Source: Branchiostoma floridae (taxonomy: Eukaryota; Chordata; Leptocardii; Amphioxiformes; Branchiostomatidae). Taken from it: DNA of 64,000 nt. A program made the position numbers and the translations under genes. Location of the stretch: assembly GCF_000003815.2 (NCBI RefSeq), contig NC_049992.1:3032763-3096762 (forward strand), written 5' to 3'. A model generated the notes under the pieces. It ran no database searches. It was not told the origin of the DNA and worked only from the letters and a program-made list of their open reading frames with translations. Below are positions 27,594 through 64,000 of the stretch, piece after piece; positions within the stretch are counted from its first letter, which is position 1; each line of letters begins with the position of its first letter.

Positions 27594-30500
27594 CTGTAAA
27601 AAAAAAAAAAGACAATGTAAAAATGATTTCTTTCATGTACATCAAAATCTTAGTTTTTTTTTTCTTACCACGAAGATATCAAGCCATGTTGATATGATTA
27701 TATGGATGACATATTCTGGGGCCCCAAATTTGATGCTAGCATGCAAAAAAAAATTTCACAAGAAAAGTTGCCTTCATTATGCAATTGCCAGTGGCTAGGA
27801 AGGTTGAACAAATGACTTAAGGATATGGTATACAGAATATATATATGTGTTTATATATGTATATACAGGATATGGTATACAGAACAATTAACTTTTCTTT
27901 GTCCTTTCACATCTTATTCTTTAACTTTGAAGTTGACTTTAGTATTAAAAGACAATTATCATATAGCCAGGCGCCGCGGACCAATCAGAAGGCCCCGTTC
28001 CACGTTGGTTATGACGCCGTAACACGTAGATTCAGNNNNNNNNNNNNNNNNNNNNNNNNNNNNNNNNNNNNNNNNNNNNNNNNNNNNNNNNNNNNNNNNN
28101 NNNNNNNNNNNNNNNNNNNNNNNNNNNNNNNNNNNNNNNNNNNNNNNNNNNNNNNNNNNNNNNNNNNNNNNNNNNNNNNNATATACACCTCGGGCCGGGG
28201 CATTAACCCTTTATTATAGCATCAATTTCCCAATATCTTTTTGCAATTAACAGATATCATATTTGCTCATTTTGCAGCTGCTTTGTACAATTTGTAACAT
28301 GGTCAAAAAGTTTTCTTTTTTTGGAAACAGACAAAAATTGATATGCGCAGACGTCATCCACATAATCAAATCAACATGGCCTTAGGATGGAATAGAAAAG
28401 GACTTCCACCAGCTGTAGTACCGACCTGAGCAGCTTGGCGCGCTGCTGCACCTCCTCCAGCTGGTCGATCTCCGTGTTGAGCTGGCTGATTTCCCGCTGG
28501 AGTTCCTCCTTAGCGACGTCCACCTGGCGACACAGCCGGGCAAAGTTACCGGACAGCTCCCTGTGGGACGGAAAGGGCATTAGAACTTTCAAGGACGTAC
28601 AAGGACATACCCCTCCCATCTTCTACACTGCATCACTACCAGGCAAAGTTATCAGAAAGATCCTAGTGGGGTGGAAGGGGCATTAGATCTTGCTTCAAGG
28701 TCACAAGGGCAGTAGAACTTTCAAGGGCATGTAGCTCCTAAGAACCCCCCTCCCATCTTCTACATGTATATTACACACACTGCACCACTGCCACTGCCAG
28801 GTAAAGTTATCAGACAGCTCCCTGTGGGTGGAAAGGGCATTAGAACTTTCAAGGACATACACCTTCAAGGACAACCCCCTCCCATCATCCATATGTACAT
28901 TACACTGAAACACAGCCAGGCAAAGTTATCTGACACCTCCCAGTGGGGCAAAAAGGTCATTAGAACAATCAAGGACAAACACTTGCATAAATGCCCCCCT
29001 CCCACATCCAAATGCATTGCACTGCAACACAACTGGGCAAAGTTATCAGAAAGCTCCCTGTGGAGCAGAAAGGACTAGAACTTTCTTCAACGTTCCCCCC
29101 CTCCCATCTTCCACATACATTACACTGCAACACATCATGACAAAGCTAGATCTTTTACATGTATGTATGTTTTGTCTTTGTTGTGGCCTGTAGTATGCTC
29201 AGTTGGGCAAAAATGTACAATAAAAGTCTTCTGTAATAGTGTAAGGTCTAATACATACAATGTATCTTCTGACTCACTGTTGCACTTGGTGGCTGATGTT
29301 CTGACTGGTAAAACTGACGACCAGCTGCAGCTTGTCGGAGGCGTAGTCCACAAACTGTTTCTTGAAGGTTCGCTCCTTGGCCTTGTTGGTCCAGGTGAGA
29401 CGCTCGTACAGGTAGAGCAGCGCGTACAAACCTCCGGTCACCGCGATCAGCCGCCACCCAACCGCCTTCCAGATCTGGGGAAAGAAAGGCCACAAACATC
29501 ATCTCAAGTTAAGAAAATAGACAGTATAGTCTAACCTGCCCAAAATGACCACTCGCGACCCTAGCAACATTATGACAAAATACCAAAAATGGGATGGTAT
29601 GTCGTGTGGTAGCCTTGAGAACAGTTGTACAGTAGTGATTATTAGGCTGCCACTAGTATCACTCTCTGTACTTCTTGACTTGTTGGGTGTGATACTGCCA
29701 TGTTTTGTCACTTCAACCTTTGCTACAATGTTTATGGTCTCTATCTATAAAATGTCTTTTAGTTTTCTTTGCCCATGTTTTTATTTTTGCACTCTCACAT
29801 TAGAGTTGGAGTCTGTAGAGGATGTCAATCATAAAATTTACTTACAGTAGCCTAATTAAAAACAAGACTCACCACCCCAGTGATAACCAGAACCCTTACA
29901 GACGATCGTGAGTAGAAGGAGGCCAGGTTGGTGATGAACTTGGCCATGACCTCTGCGACCATGACTTCAACTACAAAGCGACCAGAGAGACTTGGGTCTC
30001 TCATGGAAAACCTGGTCGCTGCAACTTGGAGACATGTTGCCTCTAGAAGCAACACTTTAAAACTGAATCAGAAGAACCTACAAACCTGGCCATGATCTCT
30101 GTGCTCCAGAAACACAGTCAACATTTTTTCCTAGGCCTACATGTGCGGTCTAACGAGTAGACCCACTGGACAGAGCCGCATGGAAGCGTGGTGTGAAGAC
30201 TAGCCGACTGCTGCCTACCTGTGTCAGGGGCCCACGCAGCAGTATAATCTACTGCTACTATTAGTAGTGATACTAACTGCCATTTCAAAACAAGACTCAC
30301 CACCCCTGTGATGACGAGGACCCCCACAGACGATCGTGAGTAGATGGAGGCCAGGTTGGTGATGAACCTGGCCATGATCTCCGCGTCCTGAGCCATCAGG
30401 TCCTGCACGTGGGGGGCCAGTACGACCTCTCCGACCTCCGCAGGGGGCAAAGGTCGCGGCACCTGTGTCACACAACAGGAGGGTCAGCATGGGGTCATCA

Positions 30501-33500
30501 TGCACAATGCACAGGGTTTAACAAGTTTTCAAAAATTCACTTGTCCTTTCTTGCAAATATAAGAAAAATATAATTGCCTGAACCAACTTTTCACCTGCAT
30601 GAAATTTAAGTAACATTTCTCTATGTATTTTTGCGCTTCCAGTAGTGGAATTCTTTTGGCTCTACTTTTCTGTGTTGACCAATGGTTGATGCCATGACTG
30701 TGAAAAGTAACAAGTACATGTATATCAAAATCTCACTCATTGAAAAATCTTACTTGCCCGCTCGGTGTACCGGTACCCACCCCTAGTTTCAACCGTAAAA
30801 ACAACCTTCTACACACCGTGTCATCGTATCCCATGAGCGCCCGTTTGGCCGTCTTGGGCCCGAGGAACCTCCGGACAAGCGCCTGCCAGCCCAGCGAGAA
30901 CTGGAACTCAATGTTCTCCTGGAGAGAGGGAATGAATGAATGTGTGAATGAATAAATAGATGGATGAATGAGTGACTGTTTGAATGAGGAAATGAGTGAA
31001 TTAATGAATGGATGGACGAATGAGTGAATGAATGAATGGATGGATGGATGGATGGATGGATGAGTGAATGAATAAATGAATGGATGGATGGATGGATGGA
31101 TGAATGAATGAATGAACCTTTATTAACGTGTCTTGTGCCACAAGTCGAATAGTAGTGTTNNNNNNNNNNNNNNNNNNNNNNNNNNNNNNNNNNNNNNNNN
31201 NNNNNNNNNNNNNNNNNNNNNNNNNNNNNNNNNNNNNNNNNNNNNNNNNNNNNNNNNNNATATCATCTCATGCCCGTAGCCAGGGGGGGTTCGGGGGGTT
31301 CGGAAGAACCCCCTCACACGCCAGAAGGGTCCGCTTTTTCACGCTCAAGGGTCCACTTTTTAAAGTCCAAGATTTCTTTTTTAGGGCGGACTGATTTGCA
31401 TTTTTCACTGATAGAAATTTCATTCAATCCAAACGAGTGTATCAGCAAAATTTGCCCCAGAAATTGCAGGAAATAGCGTTTCAGAGGGTCCAGGTTTCAA
31501 AATTTCCCAGACCTCCATTGCAACGCCTCGCATCTTCGGTGTCGGACATGGTGAAAATATGTTGGGGGAGTCGCCCGTAAAGACTTGCGTATCTTTAATA
31601 GAAATTCCGTTAAACTTAGCTTAGTCTTCCAGCAAATTTTACCAGTCAAAATGCAGGAAATAGCGTTTCAGAGGGTCAAGATTTCCATTTTTTCCGGGGG
31701 AGCATGCCCCCGGACCCCCCTAGGCAGCTCGCGCCTGCGGCGCTCGATGGTCCCCCAAGTACTAAAAAGAACCCCCCCAACCAAAATCCTGGCTACGGGC
31801 ATGCATCTGAAGTAGCAAGTAGAAGTGAGTAAGTGATAAATCAGTATCCATCCAGACCTGGAAGTCTGCGCACAGGTTGTGGATATCCAGGTGGAAGTTG
31901 GCCTCGAACGGCTCCCTGCGCACCAGCACCGCTCCGGACTGCTCCATGCACTGTTGTCTCACCTCGGGGGGGAGCAACGCTTCCATACGCTCTGAGGGAA
32001 CAGAATTATAGGTCATATCAAATATATTACTTCTCAACAAAAGAGGGAAGTGTGTGAATGTCCGTGTGTCCGAGTGTGTACAAGTGTATGTAAAAGTCTG
32101 TGCATATGTGTGTGCGTGTGTGAATGTAAGTGCAGTGTGTGTGTTCATGTGTGAATCTGTGTATGTGTGTGTAAATGTGTGTGTGAATGCATGTGTGTGT
32201 GTGACACAGGTGTGTATGTGACCCACTCACCTGTCATTTCTGTCTGTACCAGCTCTAACGTCTGGCTGAGGTTGGGCATACACCTGGTGGCCAGGTTTCT
32301 CCCCAGCCCCTGCTCCAGGTGTGACACAGGTGTGTAAGACCCACTCACCTGTCATTTCTGTCTGTACCAGCTCCAGTGTCTGACTGAGGTTGGGCATACA
32401 TCTTGTGGCCAGGTTTCTCCCCAGCCCCTGCTCCAGGTGTGACACAGGTGTGACACAGGTTTGAGACAGGTGTGACACAGGTGTGATACAGGTGTGTAAG
32501 ACACTGTGACTCACCTGTCATTTCTGTCTGTACCAGCTCCAGTGTCTGGCTGAGGTTGGGCATACACCTAGTGGCCAGGTTCCTGCCGAGCCCCTGCTCC
32601 AGGTGCGACACAGGTGTGTAAGACCCACTCACCTGTCATTTCTGTCTGTACCAGCTCCAGTGTCTGACTGAGGTTGGGCATACACCTGGTGACACAGGTG
32701 TGATACAGGTGTGATACAGGTGTGACAAAGGTGTGACACAGGTGTGATACAGGTGTGATACAGGTGTGACACAGGTGTGATACAGGTGTGATACAGGTGT
32801 GTAAGACCCACTCACCTGTCATTTCTGTCTGTACCAGCTCTAGTGTCTGGCTGAGGTTGGGCATACACCTGGTGGCCAGGTTCCTCCCCAGTCCCTGCTC
32901 CAGGTGTGACACAGGTGTGTAAGTGACCCACTCACCTGTCATTTCTGTCTGTACCAGCTCCAGTGTCTGGCTGAGGTTAGGCATACACCTGGTGGCCAGG
33001 TTCCTCCCCAGCCCCTGCTCCAGGTGCGTGTGCAGCTCCTTCTTGTACACCTTCAGCACCATGGGGTTGGGGTGGAACGGGGTGTTGAACTCGTCCATCA
33101 GCACCGACAGCCGGCGGATTTCCTCCCGCATCGCGCTGGAGACCTGGAACACGAAGCAAGAGCGTTACGCCTGATCCTGACCTTACAGTAACCCTTAAAC
33201 CCTGACCCTTCACCCCTGATCTTTAACACAACTGTTTCTGTACATCCTCTGTCATGTCCCTGCACTCCTGGGTCATCAGGTCCAGCTGTTTCTCTGTCAC
33301 TTCCAGATGGTCACTCTGTAACCCCTGACCCTTTACCCCTGACCCTTAACCTCTGATCTTTAACCCACCTGTTTCTCCACATCCTCCGTCATGTCCCTGA
33401 TCCTGTCCTTGCACTCCTGGGTCATCAGGTCCAGCTGTTTTTCTGTCACCTCCAGACGGTCGCTCTGCTCCTTGCACTGCTCGATACAGATGGCTCTACA

Positions 33501-36500
33501 CAAAAAAAAACATTTTCACATGTATGTGTGACAATGTGTGGTTTACAAGAAAACAGGAACCTGCAACACCATTGCACAAGATGAGCATGTTTAAACTGTG
33601 ATGTTGTTCCCAAAATAATTTTATCAGGTAATATTATAATATAGGAAATCCTGTGATGTTGTTGTTTACAAGTTTTAAAGGGTCTAGTTTGAGGTGATGT
33701 TTTTCACTCGATAAACCTTGTGCATCTTTTTTAAATAGTTCACAGTTAACAAACACTACGAAAATAATGATGTAAATATTCATAAATGGAGTTATACAGG
33801 TCAGGTAATTCACATGAAGGTTTTGTTCTTGAGAATACTTTGAATTTTGGGGCCCAAATCCTGTATCTGTAAGTACATTACTACAGTAAGGAGACCCTGA
33901 CCTCTGCTGAGATGACCTGCCGAAGACATCTTCCATCACCTCCTTGAGAGCGCTGGAGATCGTCTTGCCTCGCTTGGCATGCTGGTCAAACTTGGTCATC
34001 ACCGCCGAGTGCGAGATGGTTTCCTAGGCAACAGTAACCATGGTAACTCAGATATCATCTCTACTGAGCACTCTACGTCTTTACTGTCACGGTGTTGCTT
34101 GTTAATGTTCTGGGATGCATCTGTATCCATGTCGAACATACATATACGACTTCTTATTCATTTATACATGTCGAATAGAAGACAAGCGTGGTAGTCATGT
34201 TTTAGCTTGTCAGACGATTATTTCTTTTCAATTGGTTGTGCATGATTCTTTTGCACGATCATGATTGTCACACAATTCTTAGATCAGACTCACCTCAAAT
34301 TTTCTTTCAAAGTTTTCAAACTCAAACAGTCTTGCTTGGAAGCCTTCTGCCAGGGCTCCACCTAGACAAACACAAAAACGTCTTATTTACTGACACAAAC
34401 TAAAGAACTAAATAGAAGAGGCCCAGATCAGATATACTACATACATGTGTCAATGTCTTGTTACTTCAACAGTCTAACTGATTCAGAATCTAATACTCTA
34501 ATTTTCCTTCTTCCGGCATGCCCTTTTATTTCTGACCACCATTTCTTATGGCTCTCAATTTTCTTGACATTTGTCCCTGAATTATGACCTTGACCTTTGT
34601 GCCATGTGATCTTGACCTATTGACCTTTGTGCCATGTGACCTTGAGCTATTGACCTTGACCTACTGACCTTCCTCCGGCATGCCCTGTTGTTTCTGCAGG
34701 CGAGACTGCAGTGCCTCCTTGGCCGACACAAAGAACACCCTGTCCTCAGCCTGGAGTCTGTCTACAACTCCCAGCTCCTCCACCAGGAAACTTACACATC
34801 GCTCCAGGTGCTGCTTTTTTACCTGTAAAGGACACAGACGTAAACATCAGACACACCAACACACCTGTAGCTCACACCGACTCCTCACACATCGCAATAG
34901 GCGTGCTGTTTTTTTTTACCTTCAAGTTGTCAATTTATCTGAAAGCCAGTATACTTTTGACTTGGGGATTCCCCAAGATTTTTATCAATGGTACTGTATA
35001 ATACGTACATGTAGACGAAGCTATTTGTTTGTTTTTCAACATTCCTGTATCTTAACTTGAAAGTTCATCTGTGTTGGTAGAAGTCATTCTTGAAATAGTT
35101 GAACTGTAATTTCCAACACAAAAATTGGACTCACCCAAGGTTTCGACTGATTCCTTGACAAATTAAAGACCTCTGCAGTCAGATTTTGGAGAGTCTTATT
35201 TTTGTATTGGAAATTACAGTTCAACTATTTCAAGAAGGATATTCTGTATCTTGAGTTCTCTTCCATGCAGATGTTTGACATTTGAGGCTTATGCCTGAAG
35301 CTGTCTCTCATACACAGGGCTGCCGGCTTCATGTCATGATCCAAAATGATAAAATTATCTAATCCTGTAAGTATAAACATGGAGCTTACCCTAGAATTCG
35401 ATGCACATGGCTGAACAACAAGGTTGCATTACCACTTACACCGTGACATGAGGACATGCGTGCTAAGATGATGTAACAGTACTAGACTGAATATGTTCAT
35501 TAGTATATTTCTGAGTACTCACAGCCTCCATGAACTCAGGTTCGCTGGCCGAAGCGTCCCAGCGGTTGTTAAGGATGAAGATGTTGGGTTTGGATAGACG
35601 CTCGCTCACCGTGTGGAAAAAGTTCTTCTCCTGTAGACACAGAGCAACAAAATTTACCTTTAAATTTATTCATGAAGAATGCCAAATATATACCCCTGAA
35701 CTTAACATTATTCTTTCAGGTCATTCTGGTTATGTGAGAGACAACAACTTCAGAACTCTGGCTTTGTGTGCCCAAATTGTGCTGCGACTACATTGCAAGG
35801 ATTGGCCTACAAAGCTACAGAAGATGCTCGTTGAAGAGGTTCATCAGTCACGTATGCATACAGTTATAACAATTGTCTTCAAACAATGACTATTATTTGT
35901 AAGGGTACAGTACGTACCTCCCAAATTTTCGATGTCTACCAGTACATAATCGTCAGGGGAATGACCTAGTCTCAGTTCTCTGTTGAACCGGACTGAGGGT
36001 TGGGAGCTGCCCAAGTGCTTAGCCTACCTCTCCTCCGCAAGCAGGCGAGGGGAGGGGGCGGATGATCCACGCAAGCCCGATCTAGTCTCGTGTTCTCTCG
36101 CGAGAACTGAGACTAGGTCATTTCCCTGACGATGATGTACTGGTAGACATCGAAAATTTGGGAGGTATGTACTGTACCCTTACAAATGACAGTCATCGTT
36201 TGAAGAAAATTGTTATTACAGAAGGTGCTATAAACAACCCTAATCCTGAGTGCTACCACTATCTTTCAAGATGGACAGACACCTACCTACATTCTGTCTA
36301 TGGTAGTGGTAAATCTCGATAATGAAAAATCAAATCAGACTTGCCGTTCTCATGAGCGTGGACTCGGAGTTTGCCACCAACACGAAGACGTCGGCGTCCA
36401 GACAGTGTTCGTCAATCCAGCTGTCCAGGTCAGGGGTCACGTCGATACCAGGGCTGCAGGACAAAAAATACCATTAAATTGCAATTTTACAGTCAGATCT

Positions 36501-39500
36501 TCATAAAACACACAAGTACACGTAAGCTTGTGGCACCTTTGTCTTATATGTAGAATGCTGTTTTCTTCAAATAACAGATAAAAACCCTACTACAGTTCCT
36601 TGAAGGTCACTTACCTCTACTGTGAGCATGGATTTTGAGGTTCCAAACTCCAACAAATAGGATGGCCTTTGAACCCTGAACTTTTGATCAAGGAAGAAGG
36701 GGTAGTACTTCATCTGTATATCACAAAACATTACTTCTCTACTAAATCCACAAGATTGCACATGCATGGTAGCACAAATTCTATTTAGAATGCCTCCAAG
36801 GTAGCACAGTCCAGTCAGATTCTTCCTTAACACACCTGGCTGTCTCCCTAGTGTCTCACCTGTCTAACAACACCTGGACTCACCTGTCTAACAACACCTG
36901 GAATCACCTGTCTAACAACACCTGGACTTACCTGTCTAACAACACCACGTCGTCCCTCAGCAGTGCACACCTGCCCTTCGGTCAGAACACCTTCACCTGA
37001 ACTCACCTGTCTAAGTCAACACCACGTCGTCCCTCAGCAGTGCACACCTGCCCTTCGGCCAGAACACCTTCACCTGAACTCACCTGTCAAACAACACCTG
37101 AACTCACCTGTCTAACAACACCTGGACTCACCTGTCTAACAGCACCACATCGTCCCTCAGCAGCGCACACCTGCCCTTGGGCCAGAACACCTTCACCTGA
37201 ACTCACCTGTCTAACAACACCTGGACTCACCTGTCTAACAACACCACGTCGTCCCTCAGCAGTGCACACCTGCCCTTCGGCCAGAACACCTTCACCTGAA
37301 CTCACCTGTCTAACAACACCTGGACTCACCTGTCTAACAACACCTGGACTCACCTGTCTAACAGCACCACATCGTCCCTCAGCAGTGCACACCTGCCCTT
37401 CGGCCAGAACACCTTCACCTGAACTCACCTGTCTAACAACACCTGGACTCACCTGTCTAACAGCACCACGTCGTCCCTCAGCAGCGCACACCTGCCCTTA
37501 GGCCAGAACACCTTCACCAGGATACTGCTGTCCTCAAGACGCTCTCCACACAGCGCATGGGCCAGCTGGCCGACAGACTGCACAGGGATACAGAAACAAG
37601 TTTAAACACCAGAACTTTACAGTCAGGGTTTGGACAACTGTCATTCTTTCATCAGCTTAGAGCAGCTACAATTGGAATCTTCTCTCACAAAGATACATAT
37701 TTAACAGAGGGTTCAGAATCATCTTTATTGAGTCTTGGCCAGACATACAAGGAGAAGATGAATGACAGTGAAATACCTAGGTCAACCCTTATTCTGGAAT
37801 TAGGGCATCCAGAGGGCGCAAGGGAAGACATGATAAAAATCCTGTGCATCGGACTGCTAAAACACAGAAACTATTAAAACATATTAGGCAAGAAGATGGC
37901 AAAACTAGTATATTGCACTAATTGAGTATTGCACTAATTCATGTACAACTATAATTACCAGCAGCTTGAGAAGAGTCCCAGAGGTTTTTCCCATTCATTT
38001 TCACAACTGCATTTCTTGCACAATATATAACATATGAAGTGCATACTGCACACCTTCCTAACCTGCTTTTCAGGTGGCAAACTTTGCGTTCCTTAAGGCT
38101 AGCAGCACACAGAGATTTTAACTCTCATCTGTACAGTTTTCCTGTCGTCAGAGTCAGGTATGAGCAGGTAAGCCTCGTACCCTTTGCTGCTTACATGGAA
38201 TAAACAAACAAACAAACAAGTCTCACCTGTACCGTTTTCCTGTCGTCAGAGTCAGGTGTGAGCAGGTTAGCCTCGTACCCGTTGCTGCTTACATGGAATA
38301 AACAAACAAACAAACAACAAACAAGTCTCACCTGTACAGTTTTCCTGTCGTCAGAGTCAGGTGTGAGCAGGTAAGCCTTGTACCCGTTGCTGCTTACATG
38401 GAATAAACAAACAAACAAACAACAAACAAGTCTCACCTGTACAGTTTTCCTGTCGTCAGAGTCCGGTGTGAGCAGGTAAGCCTCGTACCCGTCGCTCCTT
38501 ACATGGAATAAACAAACAAACAAACAAACAAACAAACAAACAAGTCTCACCTGCACAGTTTTCCTGTCGTCAGAGTCCGGTGTGAGCAGGTACGCCTCGT
38601 ACCCGTCGCTCCCCTCCACGTTGATAAAACAGTTGGTGGTGTGTCCGCTAAATAAACAAACAAACAAACAAACAAACAGTCTCACCTGTACAGTTTTCCT
38701 GTCGTCAGAGTCAGGTGTGAGCAGGTACGCCTCGTACCCATCGCTGCCCTCCACGTTGATGAAACAGTTGGTGGTGTGTCCGCTAAACAAACAAACAAAC
38801 AAACAAACAAGTCTCACCTGTACAGTTTTCCTGTCGTCGGAGTCAGGTGTGAGCAGGTACGCCTCGTACCCATCGCTCCTTACATGGAATAAACAAACAA
38901 ACAAACAAGTCTCACCTGTACAGTTTTCCTGTCGTCAGAGTCAGGTGTGAGCAGGTACGCCTCGTACCCATCGCTCCTTACATGGAATAAACAAACAAAC
39001 AAACAAGTCTCACCTGTACAGTTTTCCTGTCGTCAGAGTCCGCTGTGAGCAGGTAAGCCTCGTACCCATCGCTCCTTACATGGAATAAACAAACAAACAA
39101 ACAAACAAGTCTCACCTGTACAGTTTTCCTGTCGTCAGAGTCCGGTGTGAGCAGGTAAGCCTCGTACCCGTCGCTGCCCTCCACGTTGATAAAACAGTTG
39201 GTGGTGTGTCCGATCCCGCTGGGTAGGATCTTATCCCGTAACATGGCGTTCACGACCGTACTCTTCCCGTTACTCGTTCTGTGGCAACAGGAAGCAAAAT
39301 AGTTCATCCAAAGAAATACTAGTATCATCGCCTTGCCATAAAAGGATACCACTCATATATACATCTCTCCCTCCCTCTCCCTCTCTCTCTCTCGGTTTAA
39401 CGTCTGTTGTTCCCCATGGGGTTAAAGTCAGAAGAAACAGAAACTCATCTTTCACCAAAAATACTCCATAGTTTCAACCCAGAATATCTAATATCAATGA

Positions 39501-41568: not shown

Positions 41569-41634
41569 GGCAGGGCCAGGACGCAAGGATGGAGAAACCT
41601 GCGGAATAAACAAATAAATAAACAAAAACTAGTA

Positions 41635-41890
41635 AACAAACAAAGCTCCGAGTGAATGCATGGGTTTGGCTACTGTGGATATTGATCGTATCAGACTCCC
41701 AGACATGGCAGGGCCAGGACGCAAGGATGGAGAAACCTGCGGAATAAACAAACATATATAAACAAACAAACAAACAAATTTCCGAGTGAATGCATGGGTT
41801 TGGGTACTGTGGATATGGACCAAATCAGATTTCCAGACATGGCAAGGCCAGGACGCAAGGATGGAGAAACCTGCAGAATAAACATATCGG
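41635..41890 (-). repeat. two extra copies of the mitofusin start-codon exon border
   Basis: Copies at about 41645-41750 and 41778-41884 repeat acceptor, 5' UTR, ATG and the codons up to MHSLG, then run into (AAAC)n. The authentic copy is the one joined to the rest of exon 2. Confidence 0.92.
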
Positions 41891-42094
41891 TAAATAAATA
41901 AACAAACAAACAAAGCTCACAGGTAACTCAGTTGTTATTTCGAAGAAACATTTTATTAGGAATATCAAGTTGACGGATGGTGGTTTCAAACTGCAAATAC
42001 TTTGAATAGATACAAATGGAAAATAAATTGAAATTCGAAAGTATCGTTCATCAACTTGATACCCTTCTATTTCTAAAAAAAGGATATCACATGT

Positions 42095-43340: not shown

Positions 43341-48251
<4,911 letters not shown>

Positions 48252-48786: not shown

Positions 48787-48792
48787 AATAAA
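48787..48792 (+). terminator. GABARAP polyadenylation signal candidate
   Basis: AATAAA about 0.54 kb after the stop; another AATAAA lies at 49055-49060. Confidence 0.5.
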
Positions 48793-50281: not shown

Positions 50282-50289
50282 CTGGATTA

Positions 50290-52700: not shown

Positions 52701-52910
52701 ATATAACAGCCTTTAACATATTAACAAGACTGCTGGATTTCTTACGACACATCCATGACTACCCCAAGAATACCCTTTAGCTATCATGCAGGGTCCTTAT
52801 ACTGAACAGCTCATCTGTTACAGTAGAAAAAATATTTTTCTAAACTTACATCCAAGGTAACGACCATGCACACTGCATCTTACGTAACATTATTTTGAAG
52901 CCATTCCCCT

Positions 52911-53144
52911 TCATTCTTTGTAGTACGTGGAGTTATCCAGATCCTCTTCTGTACCAGGTGAGTAGTTCACCTGGCTCAGGTAACTGTTGAGGATGGGTGA
53001 GGAGTGATGGTAAGGTGTGCCCAGGTCATGTTGACCATCTAAGATGTGAGAGCTGAGGGAGGTGCCCAGGCCGCTGCTGGGTCTCGCTGAGATGAACTCC
53101 GAGTCTAACGACTGAGGGATGGACGTCAGCGATCTCGTGATGGC
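52911..53144 (-). CDS. coiled-coil gene terminal exon
   Basis: 77 codons plus TGA, AITRSLTSIPQSLDSEFISA to NSTYYKE, acceptor ttccag. Low-complexity S/G/Y-rich tail. Confidence 0.85.
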   Translation of the reverse strand, partial: AITRSLTSIPQSLDSEFISARPSSGLGTSLSSHILDGQHDLGTPYHHSSPILNSYLSQVNYSPGTEEDLDNSTYYKE

Positions 53145-56100
53145 CTGGAAGAAAAAGTCAGAGCTTTTGTTTTGAATACAGGTTAATATTGTAGATGACA
53201 TAGAATAGTTTGAATCAAGTTGTTGAATCGTAGGATACTGTCTACAATTGATTTTTAGCAGTGGTGTGAACACTGACTGCTGTTTCAGGGACCCACTCTG
53301 CATAATCAAGTACATATAGAATACAACACGGTGTATTCCGTATTACCCGAGGTACCAGCCCGACCGTGGGAGGGCTTGGACCGTACTCGGCCCACTCGAA
53401 ACAGTTCGATTTATTCGAATGGAGCCCGTGTGATAAGCCCGGGCCGTACGGAAAGTTACCACACGGTCCGAAACACCCGTATCGAACGTATTCGAGTCAC
53501 AGGTATGACATAAAGGATATTATGACTACTAGCTATCCCAACAGCTGTTCACTTAGTCTTTAGACTTGTTTTCTCAGGACAGACAAGATTGATAATTGTA
53601 TTAATGGTAGTTTTCCCAATACTAACTGTGTTGTTCCTTGGAATTGGACCATTACACCATCCAACACATATGCGTACATTGTAAATTAAAGTAGTTTTAC
53701 CCTATTCTTTGGCCTTCAACAAAAAACAAACAAACCTCTCTCTGTTTCTCTATCCTGTAGTCTTGCACCAGTCTGTCGAGTCGGTCCTTCTGCCTGTTCA
53801 GGGCAACCAGAAATGCAAAACAAACAAACAAACAAACCTCTCGTTGTTTCTCTATCCTGTAGTCCCGCACCAGTCTGTCGAGTCTGTCCTTCTGCCTGTT
53901 CAGGGCGTCCAGCAAAACAAACAAACAAACAAACCTCTCGTTTTTTCTCTATCCTGTAGTCCCGCACCAGTCTGTCGAGCCTGTCTTCCTGCCTGTGCAG
54001 GGCATCCAGAAAAATAAAACAAACAAACAAACAAACCTCTCTCCGTTTCTCTATCCGGTAGTCTCGCACTAGTCTGTCGAGCCGGTCCTTCTGCGGTCTG
54101 TTCAAGTCGTCCAGAAAAACAAAACAAGCAAACAAACAAACAAACAAACAAACCTCTCGTTGTTTCTCCTGTAGTCCCGCACCAGTCTGTCCAGGGAGTC
54201 CTTCAGAATCTGTCTATTCAGAGCATCCAGAAAAACAAACAAACAAACAAACAAACCTCTCTCTGTTTCTCTATCCGGTAGTCTCGCACCAGTCTGTCCA
54301 GTCTGTCCTTCTGCCTGTTCAGAGCGTCTAACCTCTCCTGCAGCTGGGAGTTCTCCTGCTCCAAGAACCGGCAGCGATACTCGGAGGACGATACGGTACG
54401 CTTCATGTCCCGCACAGATTCATCCGCCTCTGTTAATCTGAATAGAGAGAGAAGGAGGGAATGAGTGAATGACGACATCAGTACTCCGTTGACGTTGCTT
54501 TATGTAGTATACATTTTTGTCCACCTGTCAATCTGAAGAGAGAGGAAGAAACGAAGGAATGGCAGCGGCGGTTCTCTTTCAATGACACGGTTCACTTCCT
54601 GTCACGTACATATTCATCTGCCTCTGTTAATCTGAATAGAGAGAAGGAGGGAATGATTGAATGGATGGATGAATGCAACTGAAACTAGAAGCTTTGAGTT
54701 TGATTACAAGCAAGTCACTCATCGAACATGCACGTTACGGAAAGGATTGACGCCCTTAGGACTGGCTGTGAAGCGAATCCACTGTTTATTGCACTTGTCA
54801 GAAAGAGCAATGGGAACCTGTACAAATTAACAAAGTGCCTCTCTTCTCTGTCATGACCAGTGGCAGTGAAAAATTGGCTCTTCAGTGAACAAAACTTGAT
54901 CAATAACACTTTCTATCTTTTGTATTAAGAGGTAAATTCTACTGTTAAAGCAAGTGAGAAACCTTTAGAATTTTCCCAACGAATATATATTTTTCAACTC
55001 TAAAAGCTGTGCCTTAACAGTTAGTCTGACTTCTTCCTTCTTCACAAGTTTTCCACAGTCAATCCCCCTCACCTGGTTAACAAGTCTCTCTTGTCCTGCA
55101 GGAGTTTCTTGTGGTCGGAGTTGAGACTCTTTTTCCGCTCCAGCTAAATCATACTGAGAAACTATCCTGACCAGAATTTCCCTGACAGTTCTCCCAAGGA
55201 ATAAATTTCCAACTCTAACAGCTCAGCACCTTAACAGTAGGTCTGACTTCACAAATTTACCTGGTAAATTATACTGAGAAACTATCCTGACCAGAATTTC
55301 CCTGACAGTTCTCCCAAGGAATAAATTTCCAACTCTAACAGCTCAGCACCTTAACAGTAGGTCTGACTTCACAAATTTACCTGGTAAATTATACTGAGAA
55401 ACTATCCTGACCAGAATTTCCCTGACAGTTCTCCCAAGGAATAAATTTCAAACTCTAACTGCTCAGCACCTTAACAGTAGGTCTGACTTCACAAATTTAC
55501 CTGGTTAACAAGTCTCTCTTGTCCTGCAGGAGTTTCTTGTGGTCAGAGTCCAGACTCTTCTTCCAATCCAGCTCCCTCTGCAGCTGGGACTTCACTCTGC
55601 TCAGCTCCTCCTCTGTCGACTGGACCGCTTCCTCCCGCATCCCCTTCTCTCGCTGGATGATGTCCCTGCAACAAACAAACAAACAAACAAATGTTAGTTC
55701 TGTATCATTCAGTATCTGTATCTATATAGCCGGTATAACCACCCTTAGCTTTGGTGTAAAAACAACAGCTTTGCAGACACGCGGCACAGCAGCAGCTGGT
55801 GTTCTTTAACACTATCCAGAGAAGATGTCCCTACTGTACTTGATTGTTCAATTCTTCCTTTGAAAGGTAAAGGTTGTCCTATAGTCTTTTCTTAAGGCTG
55901 TATGGCAGGTTGGTTGTTTTCCACTTTGTCTGGGACACGGTATTGGAAGGGGAAGTCTAACGCATTTCTCCCACCACCTTTTACCTCCAAAGTGAGGTAA
56001 CCATGTTTACACCTGGATGGAGTGAAGAAAGTCATGTAATGTGACTTTCTCTTTCCATGGATCTATTGGCTCAGCAAAAACGGATTTCTTTTTTGTTCCT

Positions 56101-59100
56101 GGAATGCTGTTCAATGGAGTAGGGTCTCACCTTAGTGCTGAAATACTGGCTATTATTGTAACATGTAAAAATCACACATTGTATGAGCTTCCAGCTTCTT
56201 CTTACTACAAAACCTACCACAAATTGAGAGAGAAATTTGCGTAGATAGCGTGGCCTTCCTTACTTTGCTCTGTTGATCTTGTTCTTGTACAGCAAAACTA
56301 CCATAAATTGAGAGAAAATTTTACGTAGATTGCGTCGCCTTACTTTGCCCTGTTGATCTTGTTCTTGTACTTGAGTTTCCGCTGGTCGTATCTGCGGATC
56401 TGTAGGTCCAACTTGCTGGTCGCCTCGACAACCTGCCGCTGCAGGGTTTCCACTTCCTGCTGCAGGGTTTGGACCTGACGCAGCATGGACTGTTTACCAA
56501 GCTCCGACAGTTGGTGCTGCAGTAAACAAATAAACAAACGAGTAAACAAGCTGCTGCAGGGTCTGCACTTGACGCAGCATGGACTGTTTACCCAGCTCCA
56601 ACAGCTGCTGCTGCAGGAAACAAACAAGTAAACAAACAAGTAAACAAGCTGCTGCTGCAGGGTTTCCACCTCCTGCTGCAGGGTTTGGACCTGACGCAGC
56701 ATGAACTCAGACAGCTGGTGCTGCAGTAAACAAACAAACAAGTAAACAAGCTGCTGCTTTTAGTAAACAAACCAGTAGAAAAACGTGTAAACAGTAGGTG
56801 CTGATTTAGGGCCTAGACCTGACACGACTGATTACTCAGCTCTGACAGCGGTGATCCAGTAAACAAACAAACATTCAAGTAAACAAGTTGCTCCGCAGGG
56901 GTTGGACTTGAAGCATCATGAGGTCATCTGTGTGAGTGCAGAACATTGTGACTGTGCATTTAGTGCAATGACAGGTTGTGCACCTTTCACCAAAAGCAGA
57001 AGAAATGGTGGATTTTATGTGCTTTATCATTACATCGTGATGATAGGTTGAAGTTTTAATTACTCACTTTTCCTGACGACTGTTGGAAAATGCATGGAAT
57101 GTTTGTAAAGAAGGCAAAATAAGATTAATCAGATTTGTGATATATTTACAAATAGAAACAAATTTTCCCAGAATATCTTCAAAGTAATTTGCAAAAAGAT
57201 AACAAGATCCTGATCTAAATTTTATTTCTATAGGTTTTCAAAAAGAGATCATATGTGATGTTCACATACTAACAAAAAAGTCTAGTATACAAACATGATC
57301 TTGACAGGTTGAGGATCATTTTTGTGTAGTGACTATGATCTGACAGAAATGACCTTGACCTGAAACACAAACGACCTTGACCCACCATGTCAGCCACAGA
57401 CTTGTTCTCCTCGTCCACAGACATGACCTTGTGCTGCAGCTGGGAGTTGGTGACCTTCAGCCTCGCTTCCATGTCCCTCAGCTGACCCAGCTCCTGCCTC
57501 GCGCTCTCCAGCTGCTGCTCCGATTGAACCCTGTTGCCATGGCAACATAAAAATTTGAAATGAAGAGTAATACAAATGAATTTTTCATTTCTTGGTATCA
57601 CATGAAAGTTGCATGATATTGTGTCATTTTGTGACAATCTTGAAAATTCAGACTCAAAGCAAGATGTTGAAAATCTGTAAAGAAAAGCAAGTTTTTTTGG
57701 GAAAAGAAGGGGAAGAGGTATAAGTCAGAGAACATCAAGACCTCATTCAAACCATAACATAACACTCCAGACAACACCAATGCAACCCATGCAACAAACT
57801 TTACCTATGCAATAAAGTTGTGGGGAATTATGGTCTTTATGTTAAAGTAAGGTTTAATCATCTGGTGTATTTTGCCAGCCAGAAGGTACCCAATGTGTTG
57901 AGTAATGAGGCTGTTCAACATAGTCGAGGCACCTCCTCGAGCACAGGACCCCCGTTTTATGTCCCTCTCGGAAGACAACTTTACACCTATAAGAGCTACA
58001 ATTTTGCAATTTTATGAATCAAAGTGAAAGTGTTTTTCTGACCTGTCCATCTTCTCCTCCTGCAGCTGTCTCCTGAGGGTCGCCAGGTCGTTACTTTTCC
58101 TCTCCAGCTCCTCTTTGGACCTCCTGGCCTCCTCAGCAACTCTCTGCAGCTTGTACTGGGACTCCTTCACCTGACAGACAACATGGAGGGTGAACCAGTG
58201 GCATCTTTTATTTATGTCATGCCTGGGCCGCGAAAATGTTCGATACAGGTGTTCTGGACCATGTGATACTTTTCTGTAACACATGGGGTTCTAAGTTGTA
58301 TCACACGGGCTTCTTTTGAATAAATCGAACTATTTCGAGCAGGGCGAGTACGGCACGGTTGAAAATTCGAATACCGGATTTGGACGTTAGAATTGCTGTT
58401 GTTTTGTTCAAGGATGCAACATTTCTTCAACTTCTGGTGCATTTTCCATCGAAACATGTGTTTTCTAAGGTGGCTATTACATAAATAAAATACAACACGG
58501 TGTACTCTATATTTATTTACTGCAATAGTTTTACCACATTTGTGGAGGGATTAACATAACAGGTGACTATCAACTTTTTCAAGATGTCAATCTAAAGACT
58601 GAACTGCAAACTTTGATCCACCCTCACACTCAGGGTTGACATCGCGGCAAAGCCTAACGATATCACCCCTGACAATTCAGCCAGGGTATTTGGGTATTTG
58701 GGGCGCCCTGCTTATGAATATTAATGAGCTTGCCTGATTTGTCGCGGGCCAATCAGCGACCGGATTGCAAGTTTCGAACAAACAGCGTACGGCGCGGCGT
58801 GTACAAAGATCTGTTTATCTTCGCGTGATGGTAATGCTTTTTTTTCCGTATGCTAGGTCGGTACATGTATACGGTGATGCCGTGGTTACCCTATACCCAC
58901 AGAACCGACAAATGTTAAATTTGGTACCTGATAAAGACGTCTGGACGCTGAAAGAACGTTACGCCGGTACTGTTATCTTGCTCTTGAATATTAATGAGTC
59001 GCCTTATATGGCGCCTTTCCGAGCTTTCGACAACAAAAAGCCAGTTGGTTAGAAGCCACGCCCCAAATACCCAAATACCCTGGCTGAATTGTCAGGGGTG

Positions 59101-62100
59101 ATATCGTTAGGCTTTGCCGCGATGTCAACCCTGAGTGTGAGGGTGACTTTGATCCAATCACCACCACCCTTTTCGATAATTGTGGTAGGTTCTGGCTGCA
59201 AAGAGAGAGTTATAAGTTAACCCACCCAATAACAATGATAATAGCAATCACATTTTAATCCTACACCAGACACCTCTAATCAGCACACTAACCTGTCTCT
59301 CAGCTTCCTCTGCCCGACTTCTGGTAGCTTCCAATGACTCTCTGCTGCCCTGTCTGCTCTTTAACTGAAGATAATAACAACATACTGGCAAGTCAGTTTG
59401 TAAGCTGACTTGATATATCATCAAATGATGATTTTTGACTAGTATTAAGTCTTGTTCTTGAAGACCACAATAAAACAAGGTGAATGATACAAACATGTAA
59501 GTTTACCAAGGCTAAAAAAAGAAGAAAGGACTATAATTTCTCCCTGAATGACCATGGTATAGACTTAACTGATGCAGTTGTTGAAATTTGTAAGATCTTT
59601 TGAAGAATGACAACAAACATTTAGAATTGGCGTGGTCAAAAGTGTACATCATGACAGAAAAAAGCAACAGATACAACATGGGCACAGCAATGTGGCAAGT
59701 ATTTGAAGAGTGAGAGAACATCATTGAGTCTAGGAGTGGACTAGCACAGTCTTCTTCTTCTTGTTCTTGAACACTAGCACAGTAAAAAAAGGTGATCTCT
59801 TTACCATGTCCAGCTGCTGCCTGAGCTGATCCCTCTCAGACTCTGCACGGGAAATTCTCTCCAACCCTTCCTTCATCTGGCCCCACACCTACAAAAGAAT
59901 ACACAAACATTAACAAACAAACACTTTTAACTCTGTACGAGACACTTTATTCCAGCCAATGATTTCTGATTTATCTTTAACCCCCCACTAAATTTTGTCA
60001 GTCAGTCTAAAAGACCAGGACAAAGTGCAAATTGAAACATGCATATCATAATTGAGTTCTTACCATAACAAATGATTTAGTTTGCTTAGTTTGTCATGCA
60101 TTTCTGTGATTGTGGTGGTTCATGGTTAACTTAAACATGGAAATGGTGCTGCAAAAGTTACATGACTGTTGTAGGTTATGGAGTTAACACAGCAAGAAAT
60201 TGACAAGCGACTAAAGCCACACACAAACTGACTGTTCCGTAGATTACAAGTTTGTGCGAGTGGAATAAATGTAAATGACATTAGCTCTAAGGAAACTCAC
60301 CGCACACAACAGAAGAGAGGTCCATGGAGATGTGGGTTGGAATGGGAGTGGGAAGGAACGTGGTGGGAAGGGAAGATGAGTCAGACATGAAATATCATGA
60401 AATGCTGTTTGGTTATTTTCTGGTTTAGTGATGTTATTGGTACTAAAGATTTAAGTAGCAGTAATAACTGTACCAAGCTTAGATATGTATAGCAACTACT
60501 GATTCAGAGGAGACAATACCTGGTAATTCTTGAAGCTTTTTTGTTCAAATTTCAGTCAAAGAATTTGTTAAAACTGGAGTCTGATAGTACATGATTGCAT
60601 GCTCAGAAAAGGAAGCTTTAGGATGTTTATTTTTGCATTTAAGAACATGCAGTTTACGTTACATAAGGTGTATAATAAGCCTGATCAACAGAAGTTCTGA
60701 ACTGAAAAGAATTCTACTCTACGTGACTCTAGAAAACAATCTATGGTAACCATTAAAGCCACAATGATTAATTTTCTTGGTTTGGGGACATTTTACCAGC
60801 AAACACTGTCTATAAAAACATGAGAGGAAAACTTGCATCAGGAAATATGACTAAAACTAAACATTCACACTTGACATTGTATATAACAAGGTACAGCCTT
60901 TCCCTTCAGGCTTTGCTTTCATGTTGATCTTGGAATTCAGCTTTTCTTTTCAATCAAAAAAACAACAAATTGCACATAAGCGGTGTTACCTTGGAGATCT
61001 CCTGTTCCAGCATGTTGTTCCTGTCCTCTGTGTCTTGTCTCAGGCGTTTCTCTGCCTCCAGTTTGGCCTGAAGGGAGGAGGTGTCAGACTGTACCTTCCC
61101 TGTCTGTACGTGGGCACTGTGTAGCTCCTAGAAAACATGTTAATGGTAAACACACCTGTCCTTGTTGCTGAACACCATCCAATCACAGGTAAACACATCT
61201 GTCCTTGGTGCTGAACTCCATCTACACACAGGCAAACAGATCTGTCCCTGGTGCTGAACACCATCCACACACAGGTAAATACACATGTCCCTGGTGCTGA
61301 ACACTATCCACGCACGTAAACACAACTGTCCTTGGTGCTGAACAGAATAATCTTGATGGAAATTCAACTTACCATTAGATCTGTCTGACAGACAATCGCA
61401 TTGACAGTTCACATTGTTCAGAAGAACAAGACAAGGTTCTCAGTTTCATGCTGGATTCTTTAAGAAACTTTTCTTCCGTAGATCAATTTGAAACCATCCA
61501 CACACAAAAACACGCCTGTCCTTGGTGCTGAACAGAGCTATCTTGACTAGAAATCAACTTACTATAAGACCCATCTGTGAGACAATTGCATTAACAATTT
61601 TGACTCACAAGATGACACGTTTCATGCTGGATTCTTTAAGAAACGTTTCTTCCATAGATCAATTGAAACCCACCTGGTTCTTGGCATCCAGCTGTGCCCT
61701 AAGAGACTCACACTGAGCCTCAGCCTCCTCCAGTCGCGTCTGTGCAGAGCTGGTCTGGAGTTTGGACCGACTTTTCTCTCTCTCCAGCTGTGACTGGAGA
61801 TCAGCGATTTCTGACTCCAGACGGGACTGGAAAAGGTAATAAAGGAAGCTGTAAGATTGTTTATTCATCCACATTCACACACTGAAGTTTTTCTCTTTTC
61901 TGCTTCATTGTATCACTTAAAATACGCAATTTCTGCCAACCTCTGCAGTGATCAAATGGGTGTCTGAAAATGACAAGAGTAACAACAAAAAAACATTCAT
62001 CACTATTACGTGGATAAAGGTTAGAAAGATACAGAATGCAAATTAAGTTACCCAAATCAACTGGATACATTGGAAAATGTCTGATAATGACAGCAGTAAC

Positions 62101-64000
62101 ATTACAAAAGAGCAAACATTCATCACTTTTACGTGGATGAAAGTTAGAATAAGATCAACATCATCATCATAAACAAAGTTATCCAAAGCAACTGGACATA
62201 TTGTAAAATGAATCCATTTGCTATGAGTAACTCTTGTATTGTGTATTCAGCACTTTGTTCCTCTGAGGCTTGAAATGATCATGTCTCAAGCAGTCTATAG
62301 TTAGACAATAAATAAATAAACAAAACAAATAAACAACAAACAGAACATTCCGCACCAGTTTGTCACGTGTCTCGTCCCTCTGCTCCAGAAGCTGTCCGCT
62401 CAGACGGCTGACCTGGTCCCGTAAGGTCGCGGTTTCCCGCCGAGCGTTACTCGCACGCTCCGTGGCCTCCTCTAGCTGAGTGGACAAGTCTGGGGAAATG
62501 CAGGGAGACAGACTGAAGTTTATAACGCACAAAACTATATCATTTTAAGGATGACTGGTCCCTTAAGTTCGCGGTTTCTCGCCGAGCACTACTTGCCCTC
62601 TCTGTGGCCTCCTCTAGCTGCGTGGACAAGTCTGGGAAAATGTAGGGAGACAAACTGAAGTTTACAACTCACAAAACTATATTATTTTAAGGATGACCTG
62701 GTCCCGTAAGGTCGCGGTCTCCCGTAGAGCGTTACTCGCACGCTCTGTGGCCTCCTCTAGCTGCGTGGACAAGTCTGAGGAAATGCAGAGAAACAGACTG
62801 AAGTTGTTCAGACCACACAAAATTATTAAACTTCAAATTGTAGATGGCATCTCAGACAAGAAGAGATAACCTGGTTTATTAGATAGTATTACATTACACA
62901 CTAAAATAAGGTACATCATCATAGTCTTAGGGCTAGATTGCAATTATGATACATACAATCATGTAAAAGATCACTATGGAAGACTGCTAAGAAGTACTTA
63001 AAGTGCTATGATTTACATTCAAAAGACATTTTACATATCTTCACCAATTCTGATACTGCAATGTCTGAAACTATAATTGACTATTAGTGATGGGACATTA
63101 CACAATTTTTGAGTGCAGAAAAGTGCAGAAAAGTGGCATTTGTTTAGTTACAATATTGCATGTCTTGGGTGGACAATGCCAGTGTAACAGGTTACGGTGC
63201 CAGCTGTAAGTGTTACACCTGTCACCTGTTAACTCACCTGCATTGACATTTTTCTGCAGTTGCACCGTGTCCCTGAGGTCATCACATGACTGCTCTGCAC
63301 TGGCAAGCTGAAACAGGAACAGCAGAAAATGTCCACCACTTCTACCACGACTTAAAACTTCTTTCTGTGTGCTGCTGTCACAACTGTTATTTTTTTAATC
63401 TAATTACAGAAACTTGGTGTAAAGTTCTTAAAAACTCAGCAAAAACATGGTGACACCTTATTTTTTTTTCAATTTGAACATTTGGCACAGTTTGTATATA
63501 TACAGTTGTATACTCCCTGCATGAGTCTGTAATGTATACAACACAGTCGCTGCATTATGTCTAATACTGTAACAGTGTAATACATAGTAATGCCTTAAAA
63601 CACATGGGCCAGACTGCTGAATTTTAAAAGGATACTAATAACAGTAGGAACCTTTTCCTCGAGATGCTTGTTTGTATCCTCCAGGAGCTGACTAGTCCTC
63701 TTCAGACCCTCCCTCTCACCCTCCATGCCCTGGAGTCTGGCAGACAGCTCCGTTACCTGGAACAATTCAAAAGAAGGAAAAAAAACTAGCAATTTGGTTC
63801 AATCTTTCATAATTTAAAAAGATGCTAAAGAGTACAACCATGCCCTGTAGTCTGGCTGACAGCTCTGTTACCTGGAACAATTGAATAGAAGGGAAAAAAA
63901 CTAGCAATTTGGTTCAATCATTCATGATTTAAAAGGCTGCTTGAGAGTACAACCCTGCCCTGTACAAATGTAGTCTGGCCGACAGCTCCAACACCTGGAC
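52911..64000 (-). CDS. long coiled-coil protein, C-terminal 593 residues (gene continues beyond the window)
   Basis: Thirteen exons with consistent phases (1782 nt including stop TGA at 52911-52913). Nearly all of it is charged, heptad-like coiled coil rich in E, Q, K, R and L (LEEATERASNARRETATLRD, LESEIADLQSQLEREKSRSK, RRYDQRKLKYKNKINRAKD). A final non-coiled tail of about 75 residues follows, rich in S, G and Y (RPSSGLGTSLSS, NSYLSQVNYSPG, ending YYKE). No motor, kinase or membrane segment in the visible part. Style recalls centrosomal or ciliary scaffolds such as rootletin-like or CCDC proteins, but I cannot name the family. Splice-border minisatellites flank at least five exons. Confidence 0.85.
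53311..53520. repeat. GAATACAACACGGTGTATTC-type repeat, copy 2
   Basis: About 210 bp, ends near GGTATGACATAAA, in the last intron of the coiled-coil gene. Related to 52335 and 58200. Confidence 0.75.
53736..54256 (-). repeat. five tandem copies of the penultimate coiled-coil exon 3' half plus donor
   Basis: Border copies end at 54154, 54037, 53935, 53838 and 53736 (authentic 54257), spacing 103, 117, 102, 97, 102. Each encodes variants of QKDRLDRLVRDYRIEKQRE and runs into (GTTT)n. Confidence 0.93.
54257..54437 (-). CDS. coiled-coil gene penultimate exon
   Basis: 181 nt, LTEADESVRDMKRTVSSSEY to RIEKQRE, acceptor tattcag, weak donor gtttgt. Five further 3'-half copies follow in the intron. 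Confidence 0.85.
55072..55500 (-). repeat. exon 3'-end copy and 120-bp triplication
   Basis: An exon-end copy (KKSLNSDHKKLLQDKRDLLT, donor gtgagg) is followed by three 120-bp units (55141-55500) containing TTCCCTGACAGTTCTCCCAA. The second and third are nearly identical. Confidence 0.9.
55501..55665 (-). CDS. coiled-coil gene exon (DIIQREKGMREEAV)
   Basis: 165 nt to KRDLLT, acceptor ttgcag, donor gtaaat. A diverged copy of its 3' end with a gtgagg donor is at 55072-55145. Confidence 0.86.
55709..55860. repeat. interspersed repeat, copy 2 (see 13185)
   Basis: Shares CTATATAGCCGGTATAAC and CAGAGAAGATG...CTACTGTACTTG with 13185-13400. Confidence 0.6.
56258..56343 (-). repeat. copy of a coiled-coil exon donor border
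   Basis: AAGAACAAGATCAACAGAGC plus AAA|gtaagg recurs about 77 bp downstream of the authentic border at 56344. Confidence 0.8.
56344..56516 (-). CDS. coiled-coil gene exon (HQLSELGKQSMLRQ)
   Basis: 173 nt to KYKNKINRA, acceptor actgcag, donor gtaagg. Tandem copies of both its acceptor and donor sides are present nearby. Confidence 0.87.
56517..56760 (-). repeat. two copies of a coiled-coil exon acceptor border
   Basis: Repeat intron end, AG and codons for LRQVQTLQQEVETLQQQ, joined by (AAAC)n/(AAGT)n spacers, upstream of the authentic exon start at 56516. Confidence 0.88.
57386..57530 (-). CDS. coiled-coil gene exon (VQSEQQLESARQEL)
   Basis: 145 nt to NKSVADM, acceptor gcaacag, donor gtgggt. 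The intron begins with AGGTCAAGGTCA-like repeats. Confidence 0.88.
58043..58170 (-). CDS. coiled-coil gene exon (VKESQYKLQRVAEEA)
   Basis: 128 nt to LQEEKMD, acceptor tgtcag, donor gtcaga, exit phase 2. Confidence 0.88.
58200..58505. repeat. inverted relative of the 52335/53311 repeat
   Basis: Starts TTATTTATGTCATGCC and ends AATACAACACGGTGTACTC, matching the other copies in the opposite orientation. Confidence 0.65.
58619..59145. mobile_element. foldback element, perfect 87-bp inverted repeats, 9-bp target duplication
   Basis: Arms 58619-58705 and 59059-59145 are exact complements (CACCCTCACACTCAGGGTTG start). ACTTTGATC flanks both sides (58610-58618, 59146-59154). The interior of about 350 bp is non-coding and includes TTATGAATATTAATGAGCTT. 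The 9-bp duplication suggests a Mutator-like element; identity of arms suggests recent insertion. Confidence 0.9.
59293..59364 (-). CDS. coiled-coil gene exon (LKSRQGSSRESLE)
   Basis: 24 codons to RAEEAERQ, acceptor atcttcag, donor gttagt. Confidence 0.86.
59805..59888 (-). CDS. coiled-coil gene exon (VWGQMKEGLERIS)
   Basis: 28 codons to RQQLDM, acceptor tttgtag, donor gtaaag. Confidence 0.86.
60990..61127 (-). CDS. coiled-coil gene exon (ELHSAHVQTGKVQ)
   Basis: 46 codons to LEQEISK, acceptor ttctag, donor gtaaca. Confidence 0.87.
61140..61540. repeat. degenerate 60-bp tandem repeat
   Basis: CTGTCCTTGGTGCTGAACA-type units recur five or six times between 61158 and 61535, in a coiled-coil gene intron. 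Confidence 0.8.
61674..61826 (-). CDS. coiled-coil gene exon (SRLESEIADLQSQ)
   Basis: 51 codons, acceptor ttttccag, donor gtgggt. Confidence 0.88.
62356..62489 (-). CDS. coiled-coil gene exon (DLSTQLEEATERASN)
   Basis: 134 nt to QRDETRDKL, acceptor ttccccag, donor gtgcgg. Two partial copies of its 5' half lie upstream. Confidence 0.87.
62567..62785 (-). repeat. two copies of a coiled-coil exon 5' half plus acceptor
   Basis: Each has a ttcccag/tcctcag acceptor and codons for LSTQLEEATERAS, then stops at GGGACCAG before unrelated intron. The authentic exon starts at 62489. Confidence 0.88.
63238..63307 (-). CDS. coiled-coil gene exon (LASAEQSCDDLRD)
   Basis: 70 nt, acceptor gtttcag, donor gtgagt, phase 0 to 1. 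Confidence 0.85.
63652..63756 (-). CDS. coiled-coil gene, first exon seen
   Basis: 35 codons, VTELSARLQGMEGEREGLKR to NKHLEEK. Acceptor ttccag, weak donor gttcct. Partial acceptor-side copies at 63838-63880 and 63956-63995. Confidence 0.85.
63838..64000 (-). repeat. partial copies of the 63652 exon acceptor border
   Basis: Two short copies (ELSARLQ-type codons after ccag) about 118 bp apart; the second runs to the window edge. Confidence 0.75.

Follow-up and report, generated by a model that had tools for sequence, protein, structure and literature searches.

Border-straddling tandem arrays in two neighbouring genes of Branchiostoma floridae: probable mirages with an excess at exon borders

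In amphioxus, repeats that span exon borders have been named mirages, with Adh3 and other amphioxus loci cited as examples (PMC3087553), and PGBD5 was added as a mirage case in a study that also mentions TnC (PMC3902484). In the sections of these papers that describe them, mirages are tandem units of 10-160 bp lying over an exon-intron border, at donors or at acceptors, in which many copies, not all, carry the GT or AG; they are said not to disturb splicing. Mirages are also described in the globins BflGb6 and BflGb9; globin cases differing in copy number between two haplotypes are reported, and mirages have been proposed in the same globin paper as a source of intron gain (PMC3087553), with Rogers 1989 cited there for gain by tandem genomic duplication. 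Mirages are, on these accounts, known already in a handful of amphioxus genes; no genome-wide survey of them was found in the literature searched.

The arrays described here fit the published definition wherever it could be tested, and the likeness to mirages noted by the first-pass annotation of this DNA was right (PMC3087553, PMC3902484). They share with mirages a unit that spans the exon-intron boundary in 14 of 17 duplication events, at donors and acceptors both, and unit lengths of tens to ~160 bp, the exceptions being a copy at exon M15 (428 bp) and the array at the C13 acceptor (194 bp). Unlike the published cases, they affect 12 of 31 exons in a pair of adjacent genes, a (GTTT)n-linked class of them recurs on other contigs, and their placement was tested against null models. 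New here are the array density, the null test, the neutral decay of the copies and the (GTTT)n-linked class.

Intron gain by tandem genomic duplication, of which a potato RdRp case is reportedly an example, likewise involves a short stretch, splice signal included, that is duplicated in tandem; the difference is that no new intron is seen here, the copies lying within introns already required by the reading frame. Introner elements are also repeated units with splice signals, whereas the units of the present arrays copy a local exon border. Dispersal of the introner kind was not seen when the 14 border arrays were compared with 362,247 bases (the window and other loci, some of them overlapping, a small part of the genome): their 50 outside matches were to (AAAC)n linkers, to M17-like units at 3743-3964 and to an intronic repeat of one sampled locus (L010).

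The window, the whole stretch of 64,000 nucleotides that was analysed, corresponds to contig C14:3032763-3096762 of a genome of 513,431,437 bases in 431 contigs, and contains two N gaps. On its minus strand, a mitofusin gene occupies 27515..41598 with 17 exons, M2-M18, from the first coding exon M2 (41598-41373) to M18 (27593-27515), which falls outside the span of the first-pass annotation, beginning at 28426. In a splice-exact model its exons join into 769 aa without a stop in frame, with Pfam matches to Fzo_mitofusin (4.4e-67) and Dynamin_N (2.5e-25). M2 is exon 2 of the earlier numbering, and M4, M5, M11, M12, M15 and M17 are its exons 5, 6, 12, 13, 16 and 18. A coiled-coil gene lies at 52911..63756, also on the minus strand, and runs past the right end of the window; its 14 visible exons, C1-C14, carry an uninterrupted frame of 597 aa (Pfam DUF4686, 5.4e-29). 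All introns of both models are GT-AG, except for one GC-AG intron after M6. In the two genes, respectively, exons have a GC content of 0.566 and 0.556, and introns of 0.424 and 0.395.

Events were defined by self-alignment of both gene spans, with matches of 35 bp or more lying <1.5 kb apart; 18 clusters resulted, counted as 17 events because two of them describe the same C12 duplication. Taking as straddling an event with at least 4-5 bases on each side of an exon edge, 14 events straddle 8 donors and 6 acceptors, which bears out the earlier remark that some arrays copy the donor side and others the acceptor side. In all, 14 of 60 edges are affected; the seven mitofusin exons concerned are those that had been listed before, and the five exons of the coiled-coil gene agree with the number given there. 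The straddled mitofusin edges are the acceptors at 28560 and 41598 and the donors at 30301, 32936, 33369, 37453 and 39116; those of the coiled-coil gene are the acceptors at 54437, 56516, 62489 and 63756 and the donors at 54257, 55501 and 56344, so that two coiled-coil exons, C11 and C13, have arrays at both ends. Self-alignment gave no exon-only event among the 17. The remaining three are intron-only (31443-31685, 61145-61670 and 61961-62210), and the first two of these match dispersed repeats at other loci. In this regard, the array at 61145-61670 consists of a 42-43-bp minisatellite (CCTGTCCTTGGTGCTGAACA...) that is also seen in a randomly sampled piece of contig C1 (L025 6194-6609 and 9037-9160), as a dispersed family whose members on contigs C14 and C1 mostly share 75-82% identity. 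An intron of the coiled-coil gene holds 82-87 bp inverted repeats, 100% identical, bounding 522 bp at 58624-59145, which looks like a recent MITE-like insertion.

The unit measures 83-142 bp in 12 of the 14 border arrays, the two larger ones being those named above. In the mitofusin gene (all arrays on the minus strand), M2 bears an acceptor-side array at 41507..41918 with three copies including the native one, a unit of ~136 bp and (GTTT)n on the sense strand. The M4 donor-side array (38120..39212) holds ~10 copies including the native one, in units of 98-135 bp with two different exon starts and (GTTT)n linkers, while that of M5 (36855..37522) is built of nested 24- and 99-bp units. M11 has a single donor-side copy, lacking the donor GT (33191..33467); M12 a donor-side array with units of ~118-120 bp and 11-bp sub-repeats (32199..33028); M15 a donor-side copy 428 bp away (29856..30388); and M17 an acceptor-side array of older copies with a unit of ~117-128 bp (28527..29148). 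Degenerate units resembling the M17 acceptor are also found at 3735-4060 on the minus strand, at 75-82% identity and ~23.5 kb downstream of the mitofusin gene, as if mirage units or a gene fragment had been moved or copied away.

In the coiled-coil gene (again on the minus strand), acceptor-side arrays are present at exon C1 (63723..63999, unit of 115 bp), at C3 (62406..62805, three copies including the native one, unit of 142 bp) and at C11 (56428..56920), the last with (GTTT)n linkers and, farther upstream, older copies, among which one lacks the acceptor AG; acceptor-side copies also stand at C13 (54390..54663). Donor-side duplications comprise a copy at C11 (56195..56370, unit of 83 bp), a duplication at C12 (54971..55573) with an inner 120-bp unit present three times and containing 5 bp of exon, and an array at C13 (53718..54328) with a unit of ~102 bp and (GTTT)n linkers. 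Such linkers had been described as a frequent feature; they join the copies in four of the 14 arrays (M2, M4, C11 acceptor and C13 donor) and are missing from the other 10. Across the whole window TRF returned 63 rows, including clean minisatellites in its left part at 4246-4603 (106 bp x 3.4) and 23984-24591 (54 bp x 11).

GABARAP, on the plus strand at 43799..48251, was located by tblastn with a human sequence as query, and has four coding exons (Pfam ATG8, 1e-48). Self-alignment found no copy at any of its exon edges and one intron-internal duplication, at 44781-45084. Its lack of border arrays, as first reported, stands; the contrast with its neighbours nevertheless carries little weight, since none of 6 edges being affected has a probability of 0.20 at the neighbours' rate.

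The border arrays exceed what random placement predicts in the two genes. For the null model, the unit of each event, at its observed length, was placed at every gene position, positions wholly within an exon, covering a whole exon or touching two exons were disallowed, and the share of allowed positions straddling one edge was taken as chance. Under this frame-sparing placement 4.55 straddling events are expected, against the 14 of 17 observed (P=2.4e-6). When existing array copies were masked, that is, not counted as intron space, the expectation rose to 5.32 of 17 (P=1.9e-5). Because GC content is higher in exons than in introns, part of the border bias may stem from composition; with GC weighting and masked copies, up to 8.4 of 17 events are expected, and P ranges from 4.5e-3 at its weakest to 2.9e-8 over the weights tried. 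GC content was accordingly rejected as the full explanation of the excess, of which it accounts for a part. By TRF only, an exon is touched by 10 of the 11 arrays whose units exceed 60 bp, where 2.75 are expected (P=7.8e-6); this gene count left out arrays with units under 60 bp. One of the 10, C12, touches its exon by just 5 bp, and the eleventh array is M17, which TRF draws away from its exon.

A comparison of boundary probes with random intron points was set aside as a test of excess. It gave none: copies lay within 1.5 kb of 13 of 60 edges, and of 107 of 400 intron points drawn at random. The reason is that introns are filled with array bodies and that the test counts sequence rather than events; 96 of the 400 control points fell inside such bodies, and outside arrays copies were present at 19 of 304.

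With respect to the copies themselves, the splice dinucleotide is retained in 37 of 43 at the 14 borders, and 37.0 are expected if it decays as the other columns of the same array. The claim that copies keep canonical splice sites beyond chance therefore fails. Over the 43 copies, identity to the native border is 92.9% in the exonic part and 92.5% in the intronic part (83-99% and 86-100%, respectively, per array); copies were detected by a 40+40-base probe, which misses the oldest ones. Retention at its expectation, together with equal exonic and intronic identity, gives the copies the look of neutral DNA. Judged by the continuous reading frame, the splice site that preserves the protein is that of the first copy in donor-type arrays and of the last in acceptor-type ones, and the exon-proximal splice site is probably the one used.

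Recurrence at independent loci was addressed with 12 myosin loci picked from Pfam PF00063 matches, repeats being ignored in the choice; exons there are Pfam matches, hence some edges are unseen. TRF finds 8 arrays there whose unit is at least 40 bp; 6 of them straddle an edge, where 1.18 are expected (P=1.8e-4), and P=8.7e-3 when every null probability is doubled to allow for unseen exons. Rows with units under 40 bp (L032, L035, L037) were uncounted. Four of the straddling arrays lie in L030, one in L031 and one in L040, and the two that do not straddle are in L032 and L038. In L030, one acceptor array has a 133-bp unit and another consists of 22 copies of a 50-bp unit over the acceptor of an exon that, by eye, starts with the P-loop-like GESGAGKT; two donor arrays, of 90 bp with (GTTT)n and of 40 bp, make up four arrays over three exons. 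At the other extreme, 9 of the 12 loci have no straddling array. This unevenness exceeds chance (permutation P=0.0001, with 6 straddled edges among 90 in 11 loci); L039, in which 2173 of 4001 bases are N, was omitted from the edge count, and TRF gave no row of 20 bp or more there.

Random DNA gave a different proportion. In 20 10-kb pieces of contig C1 (one all N), arrays with units of 60-300 bp were read by eye, and 4 of 21 stand at a recognisable exon border: three lie across edges of a formin-like gene in L010, and one in L015 ends at an acceptor. A further array lies within a coding exon (L010 2672-2831), the border status of one could not be called by eye, and no exon edge was recognised at the other 15 (in L012, L013 and L024-L027, of which L026 and L027 were read in part), so that the border type is a minority among the minisatellites of random DNA. 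In L015, at 6500-7102, a 35-bp unit in many repeats ends exactly at the acceptor of a Kunitz-domain-looking exon, its units reading as CAG and GT with 11 nt in between.

The (GTTT)n linkers allowed border arrays to be found elsewhere in the genome. (AAAC)4 has 6778 and 7191 matches on the two strands, overlapping matches included. In the first 1.448 Mb of contig C1, the part listed, the plus strand has 22 (AAAC)n places, 7 of them with tracts recurring every 79-146 bp (with a single gap of 236). Periodicity was the sole reason for choosing these seven, and by eye all of them read as border arrays, five of donor type (L041, L042, L043, L044, L046) and two of acceptor type (L045, L047); the native exon is in view at five, while the fetched stretch stops inside the array in L045 and L046. 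By eye, L008, with a single tract, is a two-copy donor array in a dynein-looking exon, and L001 showed no border array. Together with the arrays in 3 of 12 myosin loci and the border excess over the nulls tried, the seven periodic places support the proposal that a general process operates in this genome. The listed part of contig C1 contributes 100 of the 6778 forward matches, ~five times the genome mean, and scaling by matches gives, as a crude guess, roughly a thousand (GTTT)n-linked arrays in the genome.

Across 13 linked arrays (M2, M4, C11 acceptor, C13 donor, L030, L008 and L041-L047), GTTT is on the sense strand in 12, the exception being L008 (two-sided P=0.0034). Within the window, all 21 runs of three or more units have GTTT in the sense orientation relative to the gene nearest to them, most of these runs being copies of one another. 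Plain (GTTT)n also adjoins the single-copy acceptors of C12 and GABARAP exon 4, hence the tract need not accompany a duplication. By eye, the outer flank could be judged in 10 of the 13 linked arrays: the linker is missing from it in five (M4, L044, L046, L047, L008), and the tract is present there in the other five (C13 donor, L030, L042, M2, L045).

Two further features were noted while reading these arrays. By eye, an AG stands just before the copied exon piece in 9 of 19 donor-side arrays (e.g. 38120-39212, L042, L043, L044); in these the spacer reads as a tiny GT...AG intron and the units resemble whole exons. In L044, an in-frame 99-bp duplication within the coding exon (~225-425) directly adjoins the donor-side array, as if one duplication had remained inside the exon.

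Several processes other than a border-biased one might produce such arrays. Duplications could land randomly in genes, with protein-altering ones being lost and no preference for borders. The neutral decay of the copies and the absence of any surviving exon-only event in the two genes would suit such a filter, and its GC-weighted version comes closest to the counts; even so, the straddling events of the window, the independent myosin loci and the P values across all GC weights tried go against it, so that acting alone it is already disfavoured and, in our judgement, improbable. For the linked class, an aborted non-LTR insertion could have left an (AAAC)n tail between long target-site duplications that cover a splice site by chance, the pair then expanding. 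The recurrence of (GTTT)n linkers in unrelated genes, on the sense strand as for antisense insertions, and the outer flanks that lack the linker speak for this origin, which is possible for that class, with half of the decidable arrays against it. Moreover, the linker is missing from ten of the 14 arrays in the window, no element body is seen, and the relevant part of PMC2887409 puts RTE target-site duplications at 6-12 or 20 bp; a retroelement tail is thus quite unlikely to account for the arrays.

Maintenance of the copied splice sites as decoys for splicing regulation could be read from the 37 of 43 copies that still have GT or AG, if that figure were not the one expected from decay of the other columns and if exon and intron parts did not decay alike; we regard it as very unlikely. 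Least probable of all, to the point of being hardly credible, is an assembly artefact from two haplotypes. The two N gaps of the window and a globin mirage described as aberrantly assembled in the draft genome (PMC3087553, in its passage on that gene) speak for it. On the other side, the copies differ from the native border, similar arrays occur in several genes, and the PGBD5 report states that its authors confirmed such repeats with old and new reads (PMC3902484).

Our results are probably best accounted for by mirages: tandem duplications biased to exon borders, silent as long as the exon-proximal splice site survives, which then expand and decay neutrally. In this model, a segment of mostly 40-140 bp spanning an exon into the adjoining intron, or the reverse, would become tandemly duplicated. 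As one exon-proximal splice site stays in place, the copies would lie in the intron and leave the protein unchanged, while duplications wholly within exons would mostly not be silent. The duplicated pair would grow through slippage or unequal exchange, as suggested by the nested and variable units of M4, M5 and M12, and its copies would decay neutrally. Filtering by itself would place 27-31% of events at borders, and <=49% with GC weighting, against the 82% seen, which suggests that the mutations themselves are probably border-biased. First duplications may arise preferentially at exon borders partly through GC-rich exons and partly through (GTTT)n tracts flanking splice sites, the two correlates of the bias, for either of which a causal role is conjectured from sequence; break repair or replication slippage could be their maker. 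The anatomy of the arrays, the border excess over the nulls tried, the neutral decay in the window and the recurrence at independent loci are direct observations.

More tentatively, and with rather less than even confidence, we propose a mutational process that acts in particular genes and duplicates ~100 bp spanning a splice border, often via sense-strand (GTTT)n; the genome would then hold roughly a thousand linked arrays and more without a linker, and duplicated splice sites would be continually available for intron gain. Where new introns and duplicated splice sites come from has long been asked, and living examples are few. Were border duplications still being produced at many genes of a single genome, then intron gain, splice-site choice among near-identical copies and the mutational cause would become directly studiable there, and the difference in arrays from gene to gene, as between one myosin locus with four of them and most others with none, would provide a handle on that cause.
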